Positions 38,411 through 44,830 of a stretch of 64,000 nucleotides of DNA are shown in pieces. Both the position numbers and the translations under genes were made by a program. The stretch's first letter is position 1, and the number at the start of each line of letters is the position of its first letter. Source of the stretch: Halalkalibacter krulwichiae (GTDB lineage Bacteria > Bacillota > Bacilli > Bacillales > Bacillaceae_D); the NCBI RefSeq assembly GCF_002109385.1, contig NZ_CP020814.1, forward strand, positions 2,565,501-2,629,500. The letters run 5' to 3'. The notes beneath the pieces were generated by a model that saw only the letters and a program-made list of their open reading frames with translations, made no database searches and was not told the DNA's origin.

Positions 38411-39076
38411 TCAAGTGTTGTCAATTTTAGCAACTTCGCTTATCCCATCTCTTATCGAAACTTCATAAGCAAGGTCCCCTGATTGAGCTAAATGATAATT
38501 ATGCGTAATCATAATAATTTGCCGGTTAAACATTGTGCTTAGAGATTTTAGAAATTCATATAAATATAGAACATAATCCCCAGAAACATGCTTCCCTGGC
38601 TCATCCAATAACAACGGACCTTCTCGTCTTGGCTGAACCGTTTCTATTAATGCAACGCGAAGAGCAAGCGTTACTATATCAACGACTCCGCCCCCTCTAG
38701 AATCTTGTGGTCTAGTTTTTATTTTTACCCCTTCATACTCTGATATTACATAAAATTCAGCCACAGCCTTATTCCCATGTTCCTCTAATTCGATTTGAAA
38801 AGCAAACAAAGGACCAAAGACATACTGCAGCGCATTTGTTACTAATGTTTCTATTTGTTGCTTAGCCTGTTCTCTAGCGTACTCTGCAGATTGTTGCAAC
38901 AGCACTCTTGCTTTTTCATATGTATCTATCGTTTCAAAATATGAATCAAGCTCTTTCAGTTTCTCTGCAATCTGTTCTTCTAATAAAACTCTTTTTGCAT
39001 CAAGTCTCATCCACTGATTTTGTGCTTTTTTATATCGTTTTTCAAGTTCCTTCAGTTGATTTGCAACATTAGTCAT
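38411..39076 (-). CDS. Rad50/SbcC-like ATPase, C-terminal half as a separate protein
   Basis: 221 residues. Residues 1-85 are a coiled coil (NQLKELEKRYKKAQNQWMR). The rest is the C-terminal ABC-ATPase lobe: a signature-like SRGGGVVDIVTLALRVAL, Walker B GPLLLDEPGKHVSGDYVLYL, and the H-loop IIMITHNYH. There is no Walker A; that lies in the separate protein at 39329-40756. The signature lacks the usual LSGGE order and the D-loop has no Leu-Asp pair, seen also in phage-type SbcC-like ATPases (from memory). It overlaps the preceding small gene by 8 bp, so four genes form one operon. Likely a subunit of an Mre11-Rad50-like DNA-end-processing complex. Confidence 0.85.
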   Translation of the reverse strand: MTNVANQLKELEKRYKKAQNQWMRLDAKRVLLEEQIAEKLKELDSYFETIDTYEKARVLLQQSAEYAREQAKQQIETLVTNALQYVFGPLFAFQIELEEHGNKAVAEFYVISEYEGVKIKTRPQDSRGGGVVDIVTLALRVALIETVQPRREGPLLLDEPGKHVSGDYVLYLYEFLKSLSTMFNRQIIMITHNYHLAQSGDLAYEVSIRDGISEVAKIDNT

Positions 39077-39317
39077 TGCTTATCAATTCCTTAGGAATCA
39101 ACTCCCATGTTTCCTTCAAAGAACGTTCAATTTCAATTTCTAACTTTTGAATTTCTTGATTTAGATCTTCAGGTTTTACTCCAAGTTCTTCTAATTCAAT
39201 TAGTAGACGTGCTTTTTGATTTTCTAATTCTTCTAATTTGGCTTCAGCCCGGTAACGCATATCTCGTGCTTTATCAATTGCTTTTTTTATTTGGGCTAAT
39301 TGCTGTTCCACTGTCAT
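39069..39317 (-). CDS. Small coiled-coil protein inside the split Rad50 operon
   Basis: 82 residues from ATG 39317, six bases after AGAGGTG. The sequence is almost entirely heptad-like coiled coil, with Leu/Ile spacing and Glu/Lys flanks (ELENQKARLLIELEELGVK). No catalytic motif and no cysteines. It lies between the two Rad50-like halves, 11 bp after one and overlapping the other, so coordinated expression is clear. It may extend or bridge the coiled-coil arm between the two halves. I do not recognise a named family. Confidence 0.75.
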   Translation of the reverse strand: MTVEQQLAQIKKAIDKARDMRYRAEAKLEELENQKARLLIELEELGVKPEDLNQEIQKLEIEIERSLKETWELIPKELISND

Positions 39318-39328
39318 TATGTTCACCT

Positions 39329-40756
39329 CTATTTTAGATTTTCGTGACGGCAAATGGATTGACCGCACGTTGGACACGTTCCTGCTTTTAACAACTGTTG
39401 TTGTAACTCTTGTTCTCTCCATTCCAATTCTTGTGCTTGTTGCGCCATATATCGGTTTCCTTCTTGAATTCTCTTTTGATAATCCCTAAAACTATTTTCA
39501 AGTTGCTTTATACGTTCCAGCCGCTCTGCTTGCTTAACGATCTTTTTATGTTTGCTCTCGAGCTGTTCTTCATTTGGTAGTTTATTAAAAATGTGATTAA
39601 TTTGGTTATCTTGCTTCTCGATTTGTAAAAGCGAACGTTGAACATTCACTAATTGCTTCTGCCTTGATCGTTTCTCTGGTACTGCATGAAGCTGATCAAG
39701 ATTAATAGATGTTAAAAAATCAGATTGCTTTAAATGTTTACTTTCTTGGTTCATCAAATTAGTCATTTGATTTAATTGCTTGTCAATGGCTTCCAATAGC
39801 TTTAATCGCTGTAGCGCTTCCCCTATTAAACGATATTTTGTATTTGCAGTGTCATTTTGCTCTGTTTTTGCTATCCACTTCTGGCAAACTTCACTATCCT
39901 TTTCGAGCTCATTTTTTCTAGTAAGCTTGTCCTTAAACGTAGTATAACGTTGAATCATTCTTTCAAGCTCATAAACTCGCTCCTGCCACAATGACATATT
40001 TTGTACAAGTTGTATTCGATCCATAGCCAACTCTTCTTCTTTTCTTACCTCTTGCCATTGTTGTTGTATTCGTTCAAGCCTCTCCTTTTTACTAATCACC
40101 GCTCCAAGCTTTTCAATGTTTTGTTCTGAAGTGACAAGACTGCTTTTTAATTGATCTAAATGTTCATATTCTTTTAGTTCTTCCTTTAACTTGTCGATGA
40201 CAACTTGCTCTTGTTTCATTCTTAAATTGAGCTGTGAAAGGTCTTTCGTTGTATCACGAATGGCCATATCAAGGAAATGAGCTCCACTAATCCGCCCCAA
40301 TGTCTTGGCTCTAATCGAACTCGTTTGCTCTAATAAAAAGGGACCGTCTAATTGTTGCGAGAGATGGATCATAATCTCATTATCCTGATCAATTTTTAAA
40401 TGACCCATCCCATGAGCTTGCAACACTTCATCTGGAACATGGATCCCAAAGCCTTCAAGAACAAGCTCCTCTTGATCGGGTTTACGAATCGTATAACGAT
40501 TTTTAGAACTCGTTCTTTCTCTTATAATGACGGTATCGTTCTCAAATAGAACCGTAACTCTTACAAAATCTCCGGAGACACGAATGAAATCCGTACCACG
40601 AGGCTGATTAAATAAGGCCCAGCGAATTCCTCGAAGAATTGCGGTTTTTCCACTATCAGACTGTCCTACAATCACGTTTAACCCTTGATTAAACTCAATA
40701 TACGTATCAAGATGTGATTGGAAATTTTCTAATCTTACTGCTTTTATATTATGCAT
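39329..40756 (-). CDS. Rad50/SbcC-like ATPase, N-terminal half ending in a zinc-hook-like motif
   Basis: 475 residues from ATG 40756 (MHNIKAVRLENFQSH). The N-terminal lobe has Walker A (GLNVIVGQSDSGKTAILRGI, about residues 27-47) and the Rad50-type opening in which a loop contacts DNA. From about residue 165 to 450 it is long coiled coil. It stops just after CPTCGQSICRH at residues 461-471, which looks like the Rad50 zinc hook; canonical Rad50 would turn there and return to the C-terminal lobe. That lobe is a separate gene downstream. It overlaps the Mre11-like gene by 8 bp. Confidence 0.87.
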   Translation of the reverse strand: MHNIKAVRLENFQSHLDTYIEFNQGLNVIVGQSDSGKTAILRGIRWALFNQPRGTDFIRVSGDFVRVTVLFENDTVIIRERTSSKNRYTIRKPDQEELVLEGFGIHVPDEVLQAHGMGHLKIDQDNEIMIHLSQQLDGPFLLEQTSSIRAKTLGRISGAHFLDMAIRDTTKDLSQLNLRMKQEQVVIDKLKEELKEYEHLDQLKSSLVTSEQNIEKLGAVISKKERLERIQQQWQEVRKEEELAMDRIQLVQNMSLWQERVYELERMIQRYTTFKDKLTRKNELEKDSEVCQKWIAKTEQNDTANTKYRLIGEALQRLKLLEAIDKQLNQMTNLMNQESKHLKQSDFLTSINLDQLHAVPEKRSRQKQLVNVQRSLLQIEKQDNQINHIFNKLPNEEQLESKHKKIVKQAERLERIKQLENSFRDYQKRIQEGNRYMAQQAQELEWREQELQQQLLKAGTCPTCGQSICRHENLK

Positions 40757-41738
40757 AATCCTCTTCTTTCCACACCTCCTCAATAACCGTCATTCTGCGA
40801 AGTGCCTCTTGCTTTACTTTCTCTTCAACATTTTTTAATGAGGCAATTTCTAATATAATATCACTCATATTAAGTGATTGAAATTTGGATGCCTCTTTTA
40901 CTTGCTGAACAAAACTATGAAGTTTTTCTTCTTGATGTACAGCCTTTTCCAAAAATGTTCGGTCAAGAACTTCTTCACCAGTTCGTGCACTTTTGATCGT
41001 TACTTCCTTTAGAGAGATATTGCGATCCACAATTTCACCAATAATTACCTTAGGCATTCTACTGATCTCAGACCAGTGATTATTCACACGCGCTAGAGCA
41101 CCTGGATTGCAAATGAATTTTCCATTTCGCTCCTTAATTCCAAAGCCACCATGGAAATGACCTGTAAATAAAATATCTGCCGGCGTGCCCCATATATGAT
41201 CAATTATCGTATGAGGTACTCCTTCAGGCAATGCTTTCTCAACAAGCATACTATGAACCATATGTATCATAAAATCCGCTTCAGTTACATTTGCTGGGTA
41301 ATAGTCTAATTTCGGATCTCGTTGGTCTAGATCGTAGTGATATGGTTGTCCAGATATTTGCACTTTAATGTTATCTTTCTCAAATAAGATCGGATTGTTT
41401 TGATCGATAACTTGCATAACCCCAAACGAATCCATTAACCCAAGCATCGTTCTAGAAATGGTGTCCGGATTATGTCCAAACGTGTCATGATTACCTGCTA
41501 CAACATAAATTGGCATTTCAGCTTTCATAAATATTTTAGCAAATTGTCCTACTACGTTCGGTGATAAATCTGGTCGATCAAATACATCGCCACCATGAAG
41601 AATCATATCCACATTTTCATAATTAGCTAATGTAATTACTTCTTCCAACTTTTCCTTCAATGTATCTGTATAAACATCTAGGCGATTTTTCGGTGTCGTT
41701 CCGCGAATATGAGTATCCGTCACATATAAGAATTTCAT
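40749..41738 (-). CDS. Mre11/SbcD-like metallophosphoesterase nuclease
   Basis: 329 residues. All phosphoesterase motifs are present: VTDTHIRG, HGGDVFDRPD, VAGNHDTFGH, MVHSM, and TGHFHGG. After about residue 235 comes a short C-terminal region probably contacting the Rad50-like partner. The start ATG is preceded by AAGGAGCGAG. First gene of a four-gene operon after recA. It resembles SbcD but is not the standard sbcCD pair, which Bacillus encodes elsewhere with a single-chain SbcC. It likely performs nuclease processing of DNA ends. Confidence 0.9.
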   Translation of the reverse strand: MKFLYVTDTHIRGTTPKNRLDVYTDTLKEKLEEVITLANYENVDMILHGGDVFDRPDLSPNVVGQFAKIFMKAEMPIYVVAGNHDTFGHNPDTISRTMLGLMDSFGVMQVIDQNNPILFEKDNIKVQISGQPYHYDLDQRDPKLDYYPANVTEADFMIHMVHSMLVEKALPEGVPHTIIDHIWGTPADILFTGHFHGGFGIKERNGKFICNPGALARVNNHWSEISRMPKVIIGEIVDRNISLKEVTIKSARTGEEVLDRTFLEKAVHQEEKLHSFVQQVKEASKFQSLNMSDIILEIASLKNVEEKVKQEALRRMTVIEEVWKEEDYA

Positions 41739-41825
41739 CTCAACTCGCTCCTTTATTTATGTCATTTTCTTTTAAAACTTTAACCTTACTTCTACTATAA
41801 ACTTTCCCACACCTTTAGAAAAGGA

Positions 41826-41853
41826 AATAAGCACCTCTAAAAAGGTGCTTATT
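41826..41853 (-). terminator. Probable recA terminator
   Basis: Perfect 11-bp stem AATAAGCACCT/AGGTGCTTATT with a six-base loop, then UUUCCUUUUC on the minus strand; the U-tract is interrupted, so some readthrough into the mre11-like operon is possible. Confidence 0.8.
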
Positions 41854-41892
41854 CTATGCATGTATATTCTTAACCAAATACGTACTAGAGAT

Positions 41893-42942
41893 TTATTTTA
41901 AATCGAAAGGAACTTCTTCAAATTCCTCATCAGTAGCTGCTGGCACTTCAATTTCACCATTAAGACCGTAATGATCACGAACTAATGTTTCAACCTCATT
42001 CAAAATTTCCGCATTTTCTCTCAAGAATTGTTTTGAATTTTCACGTCCTTGTCCTAGACGCTCTTCATTAAATGAGTACCAAGCACCACTCTTTTGCACG
42101 ATATCAAGCTCAGAAGCTATATCTAATACGGAACCTTCACGTGAAATACCTTCTCCGTACATAATATCAACTTCCGCTACTTTAAATGGTGGAGCTACCT
42201 TATTTTTCACAACTTTAATTTTCGTTTTGTTACCAACCATATCGTTTCCTTGCTTTAATGTTTCAGCACGACGAACTTCAAGACGCACTGAAGAATAAAA
42301 CTTTAGTGCACGTCCGCCTGGAGTTGTTTCAGGATTTCCAAACATAACTCCAACTTTTTCACGAATTTGGTTAATAAAGATTGCAATTGTTTTAGATTTG
42401 TTAATCGCACCAGATAATTTACGAAGTGCCTGAGACATTAAACGAGCTTGTAAGCCGACATGACTATCTCCCATGTCCCCTTCAATTTCCGCCTTTGGAA
42501 CAAGTGCTGCAACACTATCAATAACTAGAATATCAATCGCACCACTTCTAACAAGAGCTTCAGCAATTTCTAATGCTTGTTCACCAGTGTCTGGTTGAGA
42601 AAGTAAAAGCTCATCAATATTTACACCTAACTTTTGTGCATAGACTGGATCAAGAGCATGTTCTGCATCAATAAATGCAGCTTGCCCTCCCTGGCGTTGA
42701 ACTTCAGCAATTGCATGAAGAGTTACAGTTGTTTTACCTGAGGATTCCGGTCCATATACCTCAATAATTCTGCCTTTTGGATATCCGCCAACCCCAAGCG
42801 CGATATCTAATGCTAGAGCACCACTAGAAACTGTTGATACTCTTTGCTCCGCTTGTTCTCCAAGCTTCATAATCGATCCTTTACCAAATTGTTTTTCAAT
42901 TTGACGCAAGGCCATATCAAGGGCCGCTTTACGATCACTCAT
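41893..42942 (-). CDS. recA: Recombinase RecA
   Basis: 349 residues. Walker [11 protein letters not shown]1/L2 DNA loops ([34 protein letters not shown]) and an acidic C-terminal tail. It polymerises on single-stranded DNA, promotes strand exchange and activates LexA self-cleavage. It has its own promoter with a LexA box and a terminator. Confidence 0.98.
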
Positions 42943-43052: not shown

Positions 43053-43066
43053 CGAACATTTATTCG
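43053..43066. promoter_or_regulatory. LexA box of recA
   Basis: CGAACATTTATTCG matches CGAAC-N4-GTTCG at all but one defined position and lies nine bases upstream of the -35. A weaker box-like sequence lies downstream of the -10 near 42991-43004. Confidence 0.8.
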
Positions 43067-43201: not shown

Positions 43202-44830
43202 TTAGCTACGGCTTGGAGTTGTCCGGCGTTCGCGCATTGGTGGTCGCTCACGCTTCGGACGAGGTTTTGCAGGTTCTAAATTCACTCTAGCTCCGTTAAT
43301 TCGAGAATAACGAAGTGCTTCATATACAAACGGCGCTGCTTCTTCTGGAACTTCGACAAAGGTAAAATTTTCAAAAATATCTATCTTGCCAATCGTCTTA
43401 CCAGGAATGCCAACAAGTTCAGAGATCGATTCAATTAAGATTTTCGGTGTCATATTAACATTTCTTCCAACGTTTATAAAGAATCGAACCTTTCCTTTCG
43501 CAGCACCTGTGTCACCAAAATTATACCCAGATTCTTCAGTTGTAGTCGATGGTGAAAAGTTCATTTTCAAAAGGGCTGAAACGACAGCTCGAGCATCATA
43601 TTCTTCTAATACTTCTTCGACAAGCGGGGCAAACAATTCTATTTCTTTTCCACCGCCCGTGATCGCATCTGAGATTAACTTTTTCCAGGAGCCTTGTTGC
43701 TTTACAACCACTTCTTCAATAGTAGGAACATCTTGTGATGGAATACTCATTTTAATTTCTTGTTCGATAGAACGCAAGTGTTTCATCTCACGTGGTGTCA
43801 CTAAAGTTAAAGCCAAACCTTTTCTACCTGCTCGTCCCGTTCGACCAATTCGATGTACATAACTCTCAGGGTCTTGAGGGATATCGTAGTTTATCACATG
43901 TGTCACATTATCAACATCAATGCCTCGCGCTGCTACATCTGTAGCAATGAGAAATTCTATTGAAGAATCACGGAATTTCTTCATGACAGCATCTCGTTGT
44001 GATTGAGTTAAATCACCGTGCAAACCATCGGCGAGATATCCTCTTGCTTGAAGAGCTTCTGCAAGCTCAGCTACTCCTTTTTTCGTTCGACAGAACAAAA
44101 TTCCAAGTTCAATGTCTTCACTATCGATGATACGGCATAATGACTCAATTTTATTCCGTTCTAGAACTTTATAATACATTTGATCGATTAATGGTGCTGT
44201 TACTTCACCTTTATTAATTGTTACTGTTTTAGGAGTCGACATATATTTATGCGACAGTTTCTTTATTGCAGGGGGCATTGTTGCTGAGAATAAAAGCGTT
44301 TGTCTCTCTGTATTCACTTGGCGAAGGATCGCTTCGATATCATCAACAAACCCCATATCAAGCATTTCATCAGCTTCATCTAGAACAATTGTATGCACAC
44401 GATCTAACTTTAACGTTTGACGGCGTAAGTGATCAAGGATTCTTCCAGGTGTTCCAATTACAACTTGTACCCCTTGCTTTAAAGCACGAATTTGATGACT
44501 AATTGATTGTCCACCATATATAGGTAGTGTTCGAATTGGTTTATGAATAGATAATTTTTGTAATTCACCAGATACTTGAATAGCAAGTTCTCTCGTTGGC
44601 GTTAAAATGAGGGCTTGAACATAGCGATCAGAAGTAACTTTGTCAACAACGGGTATACCAAATGCCGCCGTTTTCCCTGTTCCTGTCTGTGCTTGGCCGA
44701 TTACATCTCCCCCTTCCAAGATGACTGGAATTGCTTTTTCTTGAATGGGGGATGGTTCCTCAAAACCCATATCCTTAATTGCCTTCTTAATTGAATCTGA
44801 GATATTAAAATCATTAAAATACGTTGTCAT
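43202..44830 (-). CDS. DEAD-box RNA helicase with DbpA-like RNA-binding domain
   Basis: 542 residues. The Q motif and helicase motifs are complete: AQTGTGKT, PTRELA, TPGR, VLDEADEML, SAT, HGDL, ATDVAARGIDVD, HRIGRTGRAG. About 90 residues of linker lead to a C-terminal DbpA-type RNA-binding fold (VRFFINVGRNVNMTPK) and a basic Arg/Pro tail. Likely a ribosome-assembly or cold-adaptation helicase of the DeaD/CshA group. It overlaps cinA by 4 bp (ATGA). Confidence 0.93.
   Translation of the reverse strand: MTTYFNDFNISDSIKKAIKDMGFEEPSPIQEKAIPVILEGGDVIGQAQTGTGKTAAFGIPVVDKVTSDRYVQALILTPTRELAIQVSGELQKLSIHKPIRTLPIYGGQSISHQIRALKQGVQVVIGTPGRILDHLRRQTLKLDRVHTIVLDEADEMLDMGFVDDIEAILRQVNTERQTLLFSATMPPAIKKLSHKYMSTPKTVTINKGEVTAPLIDQMYYKVLERNKIESLCRIIDSEDIELGILFCRTKKGVAELAEALQARGYLADGLHGDLTQSQRDAVMKKFRDSSIEFLIATDVAARGIDVDNVTHVINYDIPQDPESYVHRIGRTGRAGRKGLALTLVTPREMKHLRSIEQEIKMSIPSQDVPTIEEVVVKQQGSWKKLISDAITGGGKEIELFAPLVEEVLEEYDARAVVSALLKMNFSPSTTTEESGYNFGDTGAAKGKVRFFINVGRNVNMTPKILIESISELVGIPGKTIGKIDIFENFTFVEVPEEAAPFVYEALRYSRINGARVNLEPAKPRPKRERPPMRERRTTPSRS

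Follow-up and report, generated by a model that had tools for sequence, protein, structure and literature searches.

A minus-strand cluster of four coupled genes lies behind recA at positions 38411–41738 of a 64,000-nucleotide stretch of the Halalkalibacter krulwichiae genome (contig NZ_CP020814.1, forward-strand positions 2,565,501 to 2,629,500; hereafter the window). It encodes, in order, an Mre11-like protein, the N-terminal half of a Rad50 (N-half), a small protein and the C-terminal half of a Rad50 (C-half) (Table 1). We consider it very likely that the four proteins form one Mre11/Rad50 (MR)-type nuclease in which Rad50 is assembled non-covalently, and that this nuclease acts in place of SbcCD in these lineages. 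Canonical SbcC/Rad50 is a single chain with the zinc hook in mid-protein. The Mre11-like and N-half genes overlap by 8 bp, the N-half and small genes are separated by 11 bp, and the small and C-half genes overlap by 8 bp. A preliminary description of the window had given these genes with exact coordinates, sizes and spacing, and its proposal of a multi-subunit MR-type complex with a Rad50 cut at the hook is supported by the evidence below.

Table 1. Features of the split MR cluster and its surroundings (positions in the window; aa, amino acids)
Feature	Position	Strand	Remarks
Mre11/SbcD-type nuclease	40749..41738	-	329 aa; DxH, GGDxFD, GNHD, H, GHxH complete
Rad50 N-half	39329..40756	-	475 aa, ATG at 40756; N-lobe, arm, C-terminal hook
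Small coiled-coil subunit	39069..39317	-	82 aa, motif LGVKPEDL
Rad50 C-half	38411..39076	-	221 aa; short coil + C-lobe
Walker A GQSDSGKT (N-half residues 31-38)	40643..40666	-	G31, G36, K37 in 156/158 N-halves, gaps in other 2
Q-loop Gln135	40352..40354	-	kept in 156/158 N-halves
Arm, five tandem ~47-residue units starting at residues 195, 242, 289, 337, 384	39467..40174	-	repeat profile, AF2 helix breaks
Zinc-hook motif CPTC	39365..39376	-	11 residues between motif and stop
Variant ABC (ATP-binding cassette) signature RGGGV	38684..38698	-	canonical SGGE aligned to GGGV
Walker B LLLDE	38600..38614	-	D158, E159 in 162/162 C-halves
H-loop His192	38501..38503	-	kept in 150/162 C-halves
recA (context)	41893..42942	-	
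Terminator-like hairpin, 13-bp stem	41825..41854	-	separates recA from MR genes

The N-half is recognised by Pfam AAA_23 (E = 1.4e-12), and its top NCBIfam match is Rad50 (59.7 bits). Its AlphaFold2 (AF2) model contains an SMC/Rad50-type head with a structural match over residues 1 to ~190, and profiles of the N-half and the C-half match chains A and B, respectively, of the Pyrococcus furiosus Rad50 ATPase (1f2t, 1ii8), structures in which the two lobes are separate chains. The long helical arm of the N-half terminates in CPTCGQSICRHENLK. Residues C461, P462 and C464 of this hook are invariant in 112 of 120 listed homologues (eight were left out, some of them incomplete), and a profile of the N-half end weakly matches the zinc hooks 6zff (E = 3.6e-5) and 1l8d (E = 8.7e-5); the zinc hook is assigned by its motif, and zinc binding is predicted. 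In the C-half, the P. furiosus signature SGGE aligns with GGG[VI]; GGG occupies this site in 150 of 162 C-halves, and SGG[EQ] was found in 0/162, compared with 30/30 canonical SbcC proteins of Bacillales. The metallophosphoesterase motifs are all present in the window's Mre11-like protein (Pfam Metallophos, E = 4.1e-14), and D8, H10, D51, H84, H162 and H196 are conserved over 161 Mre11 relatives (one Q at H10; 2–3 gaps). Among the viral Mre11 rows (n = 82), Gln occurs at N83 in 18 and Asp at H194 in 30.

The genomes of 84,980 species were pattern-scanned with the C-half alignment, which yielded 137 relatives, an undercount because the scan used one peptide pattern; the best 80 were kept. All 80 bacterial loci have the order Mre11, N-half, small gene and C-half, with recA upstream in 74, and the carriers span Halalkalibacter, Shouchella and Alkalihalophilus to Thermoactinomycetaceae, Desulfotomaculum relatives and Peptoniphilus. 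Duplicates and loci in which one half was not detected were dropped (1/80 bacterial, 39/120 viral). Of the 79 distinct bacterial loci left, 76 have a recognisable hook, with 9–47 residues after the first Cys (median 21), and the other three have an interrupted open reading frame (ORF). The hook was likewise found in 80 of the 81 distinct viral loci with both halves, where the tail measures 5–33 residues (median 13) except for one of 141. An Mre11 partner is encoded alongside in 80/80 bacterial loci, and an Mre11 match was obtained in 161/162 distinct loci. In most phage loci the Mre11 gene follows the C-half or sits between the N-half and C-half genes. The same set of genes occurs in Bacillus phage vB_BboS-125, where the Mre11 ORF (L002:9256-10236) is unannotated. 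The family includes 975 C-half and 743 N-half matches, from genes often named just ATPase or hypothetical. Nine plasmid records match the C-half, five of them over at least 80% of its length; no match came from a nucleotide search that used a viral C-half as query.

These distributions bear on the possibility that a single Rad50 gene is decaying or has been divided by assembly errors, which we regard as practically nil. The C-half alone falls below Pfam cut-offs (it matches NCBIfam Rad50 C-termini with 28.6 bits), and one of the four genes is interrupted in 6/80 bacterial loci, as would be expected of decay. However, breakpoint and order are identical in the 80 bacterial and the viral loci, the catalytic residues are conserved, and the window's genome is a single contig (99.99% complete). 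The split is therefore genuine rather than a sequencing error, and conservation already refutes the reading of a broken gene.

We then compared the occurrence of the split form with that of canonical SbcCD. No canonical SbcC was found in the window's own genome with TIGR00618 (best match 23.6 bits, to a 1201-aa ORF that we take to be Smc), NF041751 or NF041754 (no match), and no SbcD with TIGR00619 at E = 1e-18. The preliminary description had expected a standard sbcCD elsewhere and hence a "second" MR complex; instead, because neither canonical gene was found, the split complex seems to be the MR complex of this genome. Among 100 relatives, the split C-half was present in 41/41 genomes of the window's family and in one other, with two more weak matches in large ORFs. 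Strong canonical SbcC was present in 54 of the 58 non-carriers; of the four without it, one encodes a different SbcC-like ORF (split versus canonical, Fisher P = 1e-15, not kinship-corrected). A set of 40 carriers, four of them from the window's own family, gave one clear SbcD (150 bits), one weaker (55.6 bits) and 22 matches of ≤30 bits; in Alkalihalophilus pseudofirmus OF4, SbcD was not found. Across 398 phylum-wide genomes, 65 carried a strong C-lobe (27 families, 45 genera; three are armless fusions) after five weak matches of 70 (E = 5.7e-12 to 8.7e-11) had been dropped. SbcD (E = 1e-18) was detected in 168 genomes, namely 3/65 split carriers versus 165/333 others (Fisher P = 2e-13 by genome, 4e-9 by genus). 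Two of the three genomes with both have the phage-type gene order, and the third has a marginal SbcD (E = 1.7e-20). L319 and L321 are phage-order split MR genes in bacterial genomes with canonical SbcD, and are perhaps prophages.

A role in defence had also been proposed for the cluster. A Lamassu- or MADS-like system with a Rad50-like ATPase at its core, guarding against phage DNA ends, would agree with the PADLOC matches of the N-half to LmuB models (up to 66.9 bits, the best listed) and of the C-half to mad3 (31.6 bits). We nevertheless judge such a system very unlikely, since the split genes occur family-wide and adjoin recA, which argues for housekeeping; there is no effector among the four genes, the genes are frequent in phage contigs themselves, and SbcD is largely missing where they are present. 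LmuA and LmuC were absent among the matches listed for the four proteins scanned (for the N-half, the best 25 of 37).

Natural fusions connect the parts with one another. An armless query listed 120 proteins, of which 72 were analysed and 48 left out. In 65 of the 72, Mre11 and the N-half form a single chain; 59 of these end 7–30 residues past the last CxxC, and six run on for 135–144 residues. The profile of the small protein matches behind the hook in five of these six, with whole-protein scores of 27.7, 24.2, 18.3, 14.2 and 13.5 bits against 13.8 for the best of 662 decoys, although the decoys (141 aa) were shorter than the fused proteins. By best single stretch, three fused proteins (27.7, 24.2 and 16.5 bits) beat the top decoy. 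The small protein is thus related to the segment that follows the hook in the fused proteins. The tail of the L156 fusion was rejected as a further homologue (11.4 bits, rank 6 of 663, no better than coil decoys), and a viral scan with this fusion gave no match beyond L156 itself. Among the 81 viral loci, the small gene was recognised in 44, and 28 of the other 37 have a short ORF ahead of the C-half; several of these ORFs look unlike coils. A further 6/72 proteins are one chain of 667–734 aa containing Mre11, N-lobe and C-lobe, with neither arm nor CPxC hook; genomes G183, G500 and G437 encode armless chains of 684–700 aa without any CxxC, some of which are probably among the six. Mre11 and the N-half also form one ORF in four viral contigs. 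Therefore, Mre11/N-half, N-half/small piece and N-lobe/C-lobe are each covalently joined somewhere. Armless hookless chains lie at L310:2152-4254, L311:1264-3318 and L312:2083-4170, where the next gene looks AddB-like by eye.

The arm varies in length by steps. In 266 N-halves, the distance from F140 to the hook falls into the classes 159–179 (17 proteins), 208–227 (25), 258–262 (3), 272–276 (13), 283 (1), 316–322 (175), 366–372 (31) and 461 (1), at least one value (L164) coming from a truncated ORF. These classes are mostly ~47 residues apart, in two series. The N-half family profile is self-similar at offsets of 47, 95 and 142 residues, offset 47 being the best of 145 tested (~3 standard deviations (sd)), and four of five helix breaks in the AF2 arm are near unit position 11. 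A canonical SbcC control, consisting of one narrow family, showed neither the ~47-residue length steps nor the 47/95/142 self-repeat, its peaks reaching 2.5 sd at other offsets. Matches to a profile of the 47-residue unit are partly circular because the profile was trained on the same family, and it also gives 15.4 and 8.9 bits in 2/30 canonical controls; the claim of a 47-residue period consequently rests on the multiples (95, 142) and the length classes. Mean-field couplings within pairs of consecutive units (754–762 rows) hinted at antiparallel packing, with antidiagonal sums of 65–71. Some unit pairs lacked this signal, and the background correction makes the permuted control not comparable, so that no conclusion was drawn on packing.

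Several observations weigh against the proposed split MR nuclease. Gly replaces the signature Ser in 158/162 C-halves. Most members have ~320 residues from F140 to the hook, compared with a returning strand of 82 residues plus the short coil of the C-half, and arm length is uncorrelated with the length of the small protein or the C-half (Spearman –0.08 and –0.07; n = 120). Because the returning strand is not longer where the arm is longer, the arm is not a simple two-stranded hairpin over its full length at 1:1:1. In the same profile search as the solved hooks, a designed coil scores better (6.6e-6) than they do; AF2 models of the N-half and of the arm have confident helices with low predicted TM-scores (0.36 and 0.33), and the arm alone found no matching chain with Foldseek or VIA-align. 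In addition, 7/42 split carriers among the relatives also have canonical SbcC with SbcD, and the statistics on the complementarity of SbcD and the split form take no account of kinship. In Microbacterium phage Magritte, the N-half-like gene lacks a CxxC. The earlier statement that the genes together contain every part of one Rad50 does not hold, since their sum is not an ordinary Rad50, the ascending arm being far longer than the returning strand.

This inequality, and the distance of ~93 kb between the N-half-like gene and the C-half in the linear record of Magritte, might indicate that the two halves serve different complexes, with the C-half and small protein as regulators. We find this highly improbable, given that neither half alone has a full ATP site, that Mre11, N-lobe and C-lobe are joined in one chain in six protein clusters, and that the genes are coupled in bacterial loci.

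If the four proteins act as one MR-type nuclease, the N-half and C-half would pair to form one ABC ATPase head, and ATP would close two such heads, as the presence of Walker A and Walker B suggests, with GGG[VI] replacing SGGE. Two Mre11 subunits would be located at the arm bases, and CPTC at each N-half tip may join two arms via zinc. The small protein would correspond to the beginning of the returning strand, detached from the rest, and the short coil of the C-half to its end. Such a complex is predicted to process DNA ends, hairpins and blocked ends like SbcCD, for which it would substitute in these lineages, and phages may use it for their own recombination or replication.

We also considered where the bacterial genes came from. 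In a tree of the joined lobes (101 rows, Shimodaira–Hasegawa-like approximate likelihood ratio supports, rooted on canonical rows), 23/24 canonical rows cluster on one branch (100), and the last, L277, sits on a very long one; support for separating the split rows from the rest is just 59. All 27 bacterial split rows, together with six viral rows, make up a group of 33 (98) that is nested among viral rows. A phage origin of the bacterial genes is a lead, not a result. A wider scenario, which we offer tentatively and at somewhat below even chances, is a separate, mostly phage-diversified MR lineage without a covalent Rad50 return strand. Its rod-like modular arm would change by whole 47-residue units, its tip would be closed by an exchangeable small subunit, and its heads would be assembled or released via the C-half; it would have taken the place of SbcCD in many Bacillota, with arm and hook lost in one branch. 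The very wide phage distribution, the fusions, the GGG signature and the stepwise arm length had not been anticipated in the preliminary description.

The cluster does lie directly downstream of recA, as had been described; co-transcription is doubtful because a terminator-like hairpin intervenes, although such hairpins are not enriched in the region (2 found versus 2.6 expected in shuffles). No LexA-like site was found ahead of the MR genes, and the window has 15 one-mismatch sites versus 9.1 expected. One such site, of a kind barely above chance in the window, is at 43053-43066, ahead of recA. A DEAD-box helicase gene, assigned by eye (43202-44830), is located between recA and cinA, which are neighbours in Bacillus subtilis. 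In many genomes of the window's family, a RecB-like ORF (3230360-3232939 in the own genome) measures ~1107–1182 aa, compared with mostly ~1230–1270 aa in other Bacillales, the length of AddA. The family's lengths agree with the RecBCD reported to replace AddAB in B. halodurans (PMC1193525).

Communication among head, arm and hook is a long-standing question in Rad50 biology, usually approached by cutting or shortening one chain. The natural cut at the hook, the stepwise arms and the armless branch make the need for covalent hook continuity, for arm length and for the signature Ser directly testable. The results also point to a likely repair role for a large gene family often annotated as ATPase or hypothetical, and the split form would explain the apparent absence of SbcCD in many Bacillota.

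The split form of the MR complex is genuine and occurs widely. No earlier description of a split Rad50/SbcC was found in the literature searched (preprints and most subscription papers were outside its coverage). Phage SbcCD is treated as nearly universal among jumbo phages in PMC7824862, whose consulted passages mention that other enzymes are split but do not mention a split of this one. PHROG families 16465, 18563 and 15167, matched by the N-half (234 bits), the small protein (31) and the C-half (210), carry separate annotations (exonuclease, unknown function and ATPase) rather than that of a single split Rad50. Single-chain Mre11/Rad50 fusions such as Mimivirus R555 resemble the fused relatives in having Mre11 ahead of Rad50, and a Bacillus phage fusion lacking one P-loop segment was described with them (PMC3175470). 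In L121, L126 and L131, which share this architecture, a separate gene further downstream encodes the segment that is missing, and the split data suggest a reason for its absence from the fusion. In B. subtilis Smc, PMC5344682 describes an arm length constrained in steps, with a period of 91 residues in viability screens, a constraint that its authors suggest may extend to Rad50; here, in contrast, the steps are ~47 residues and borne by a recognisable sequence unit. With SbcCD and Mre11-Rad50, the split form shares the Mre11 metallophosphoesterase residues, Walker A, Q-loop, Walker B, H-loop, the CxxC at the arm tip and the N-lobe head fold. It differs from them in a Rad50 of three chains cut behind the hook, in the lack of SGG[EQ], in an arm of 47-residue units and in strands of unequal length, whereas the two strands in the canonical controls are similar (Walker A to hook 477–488 residues, hook to signature 411–425).

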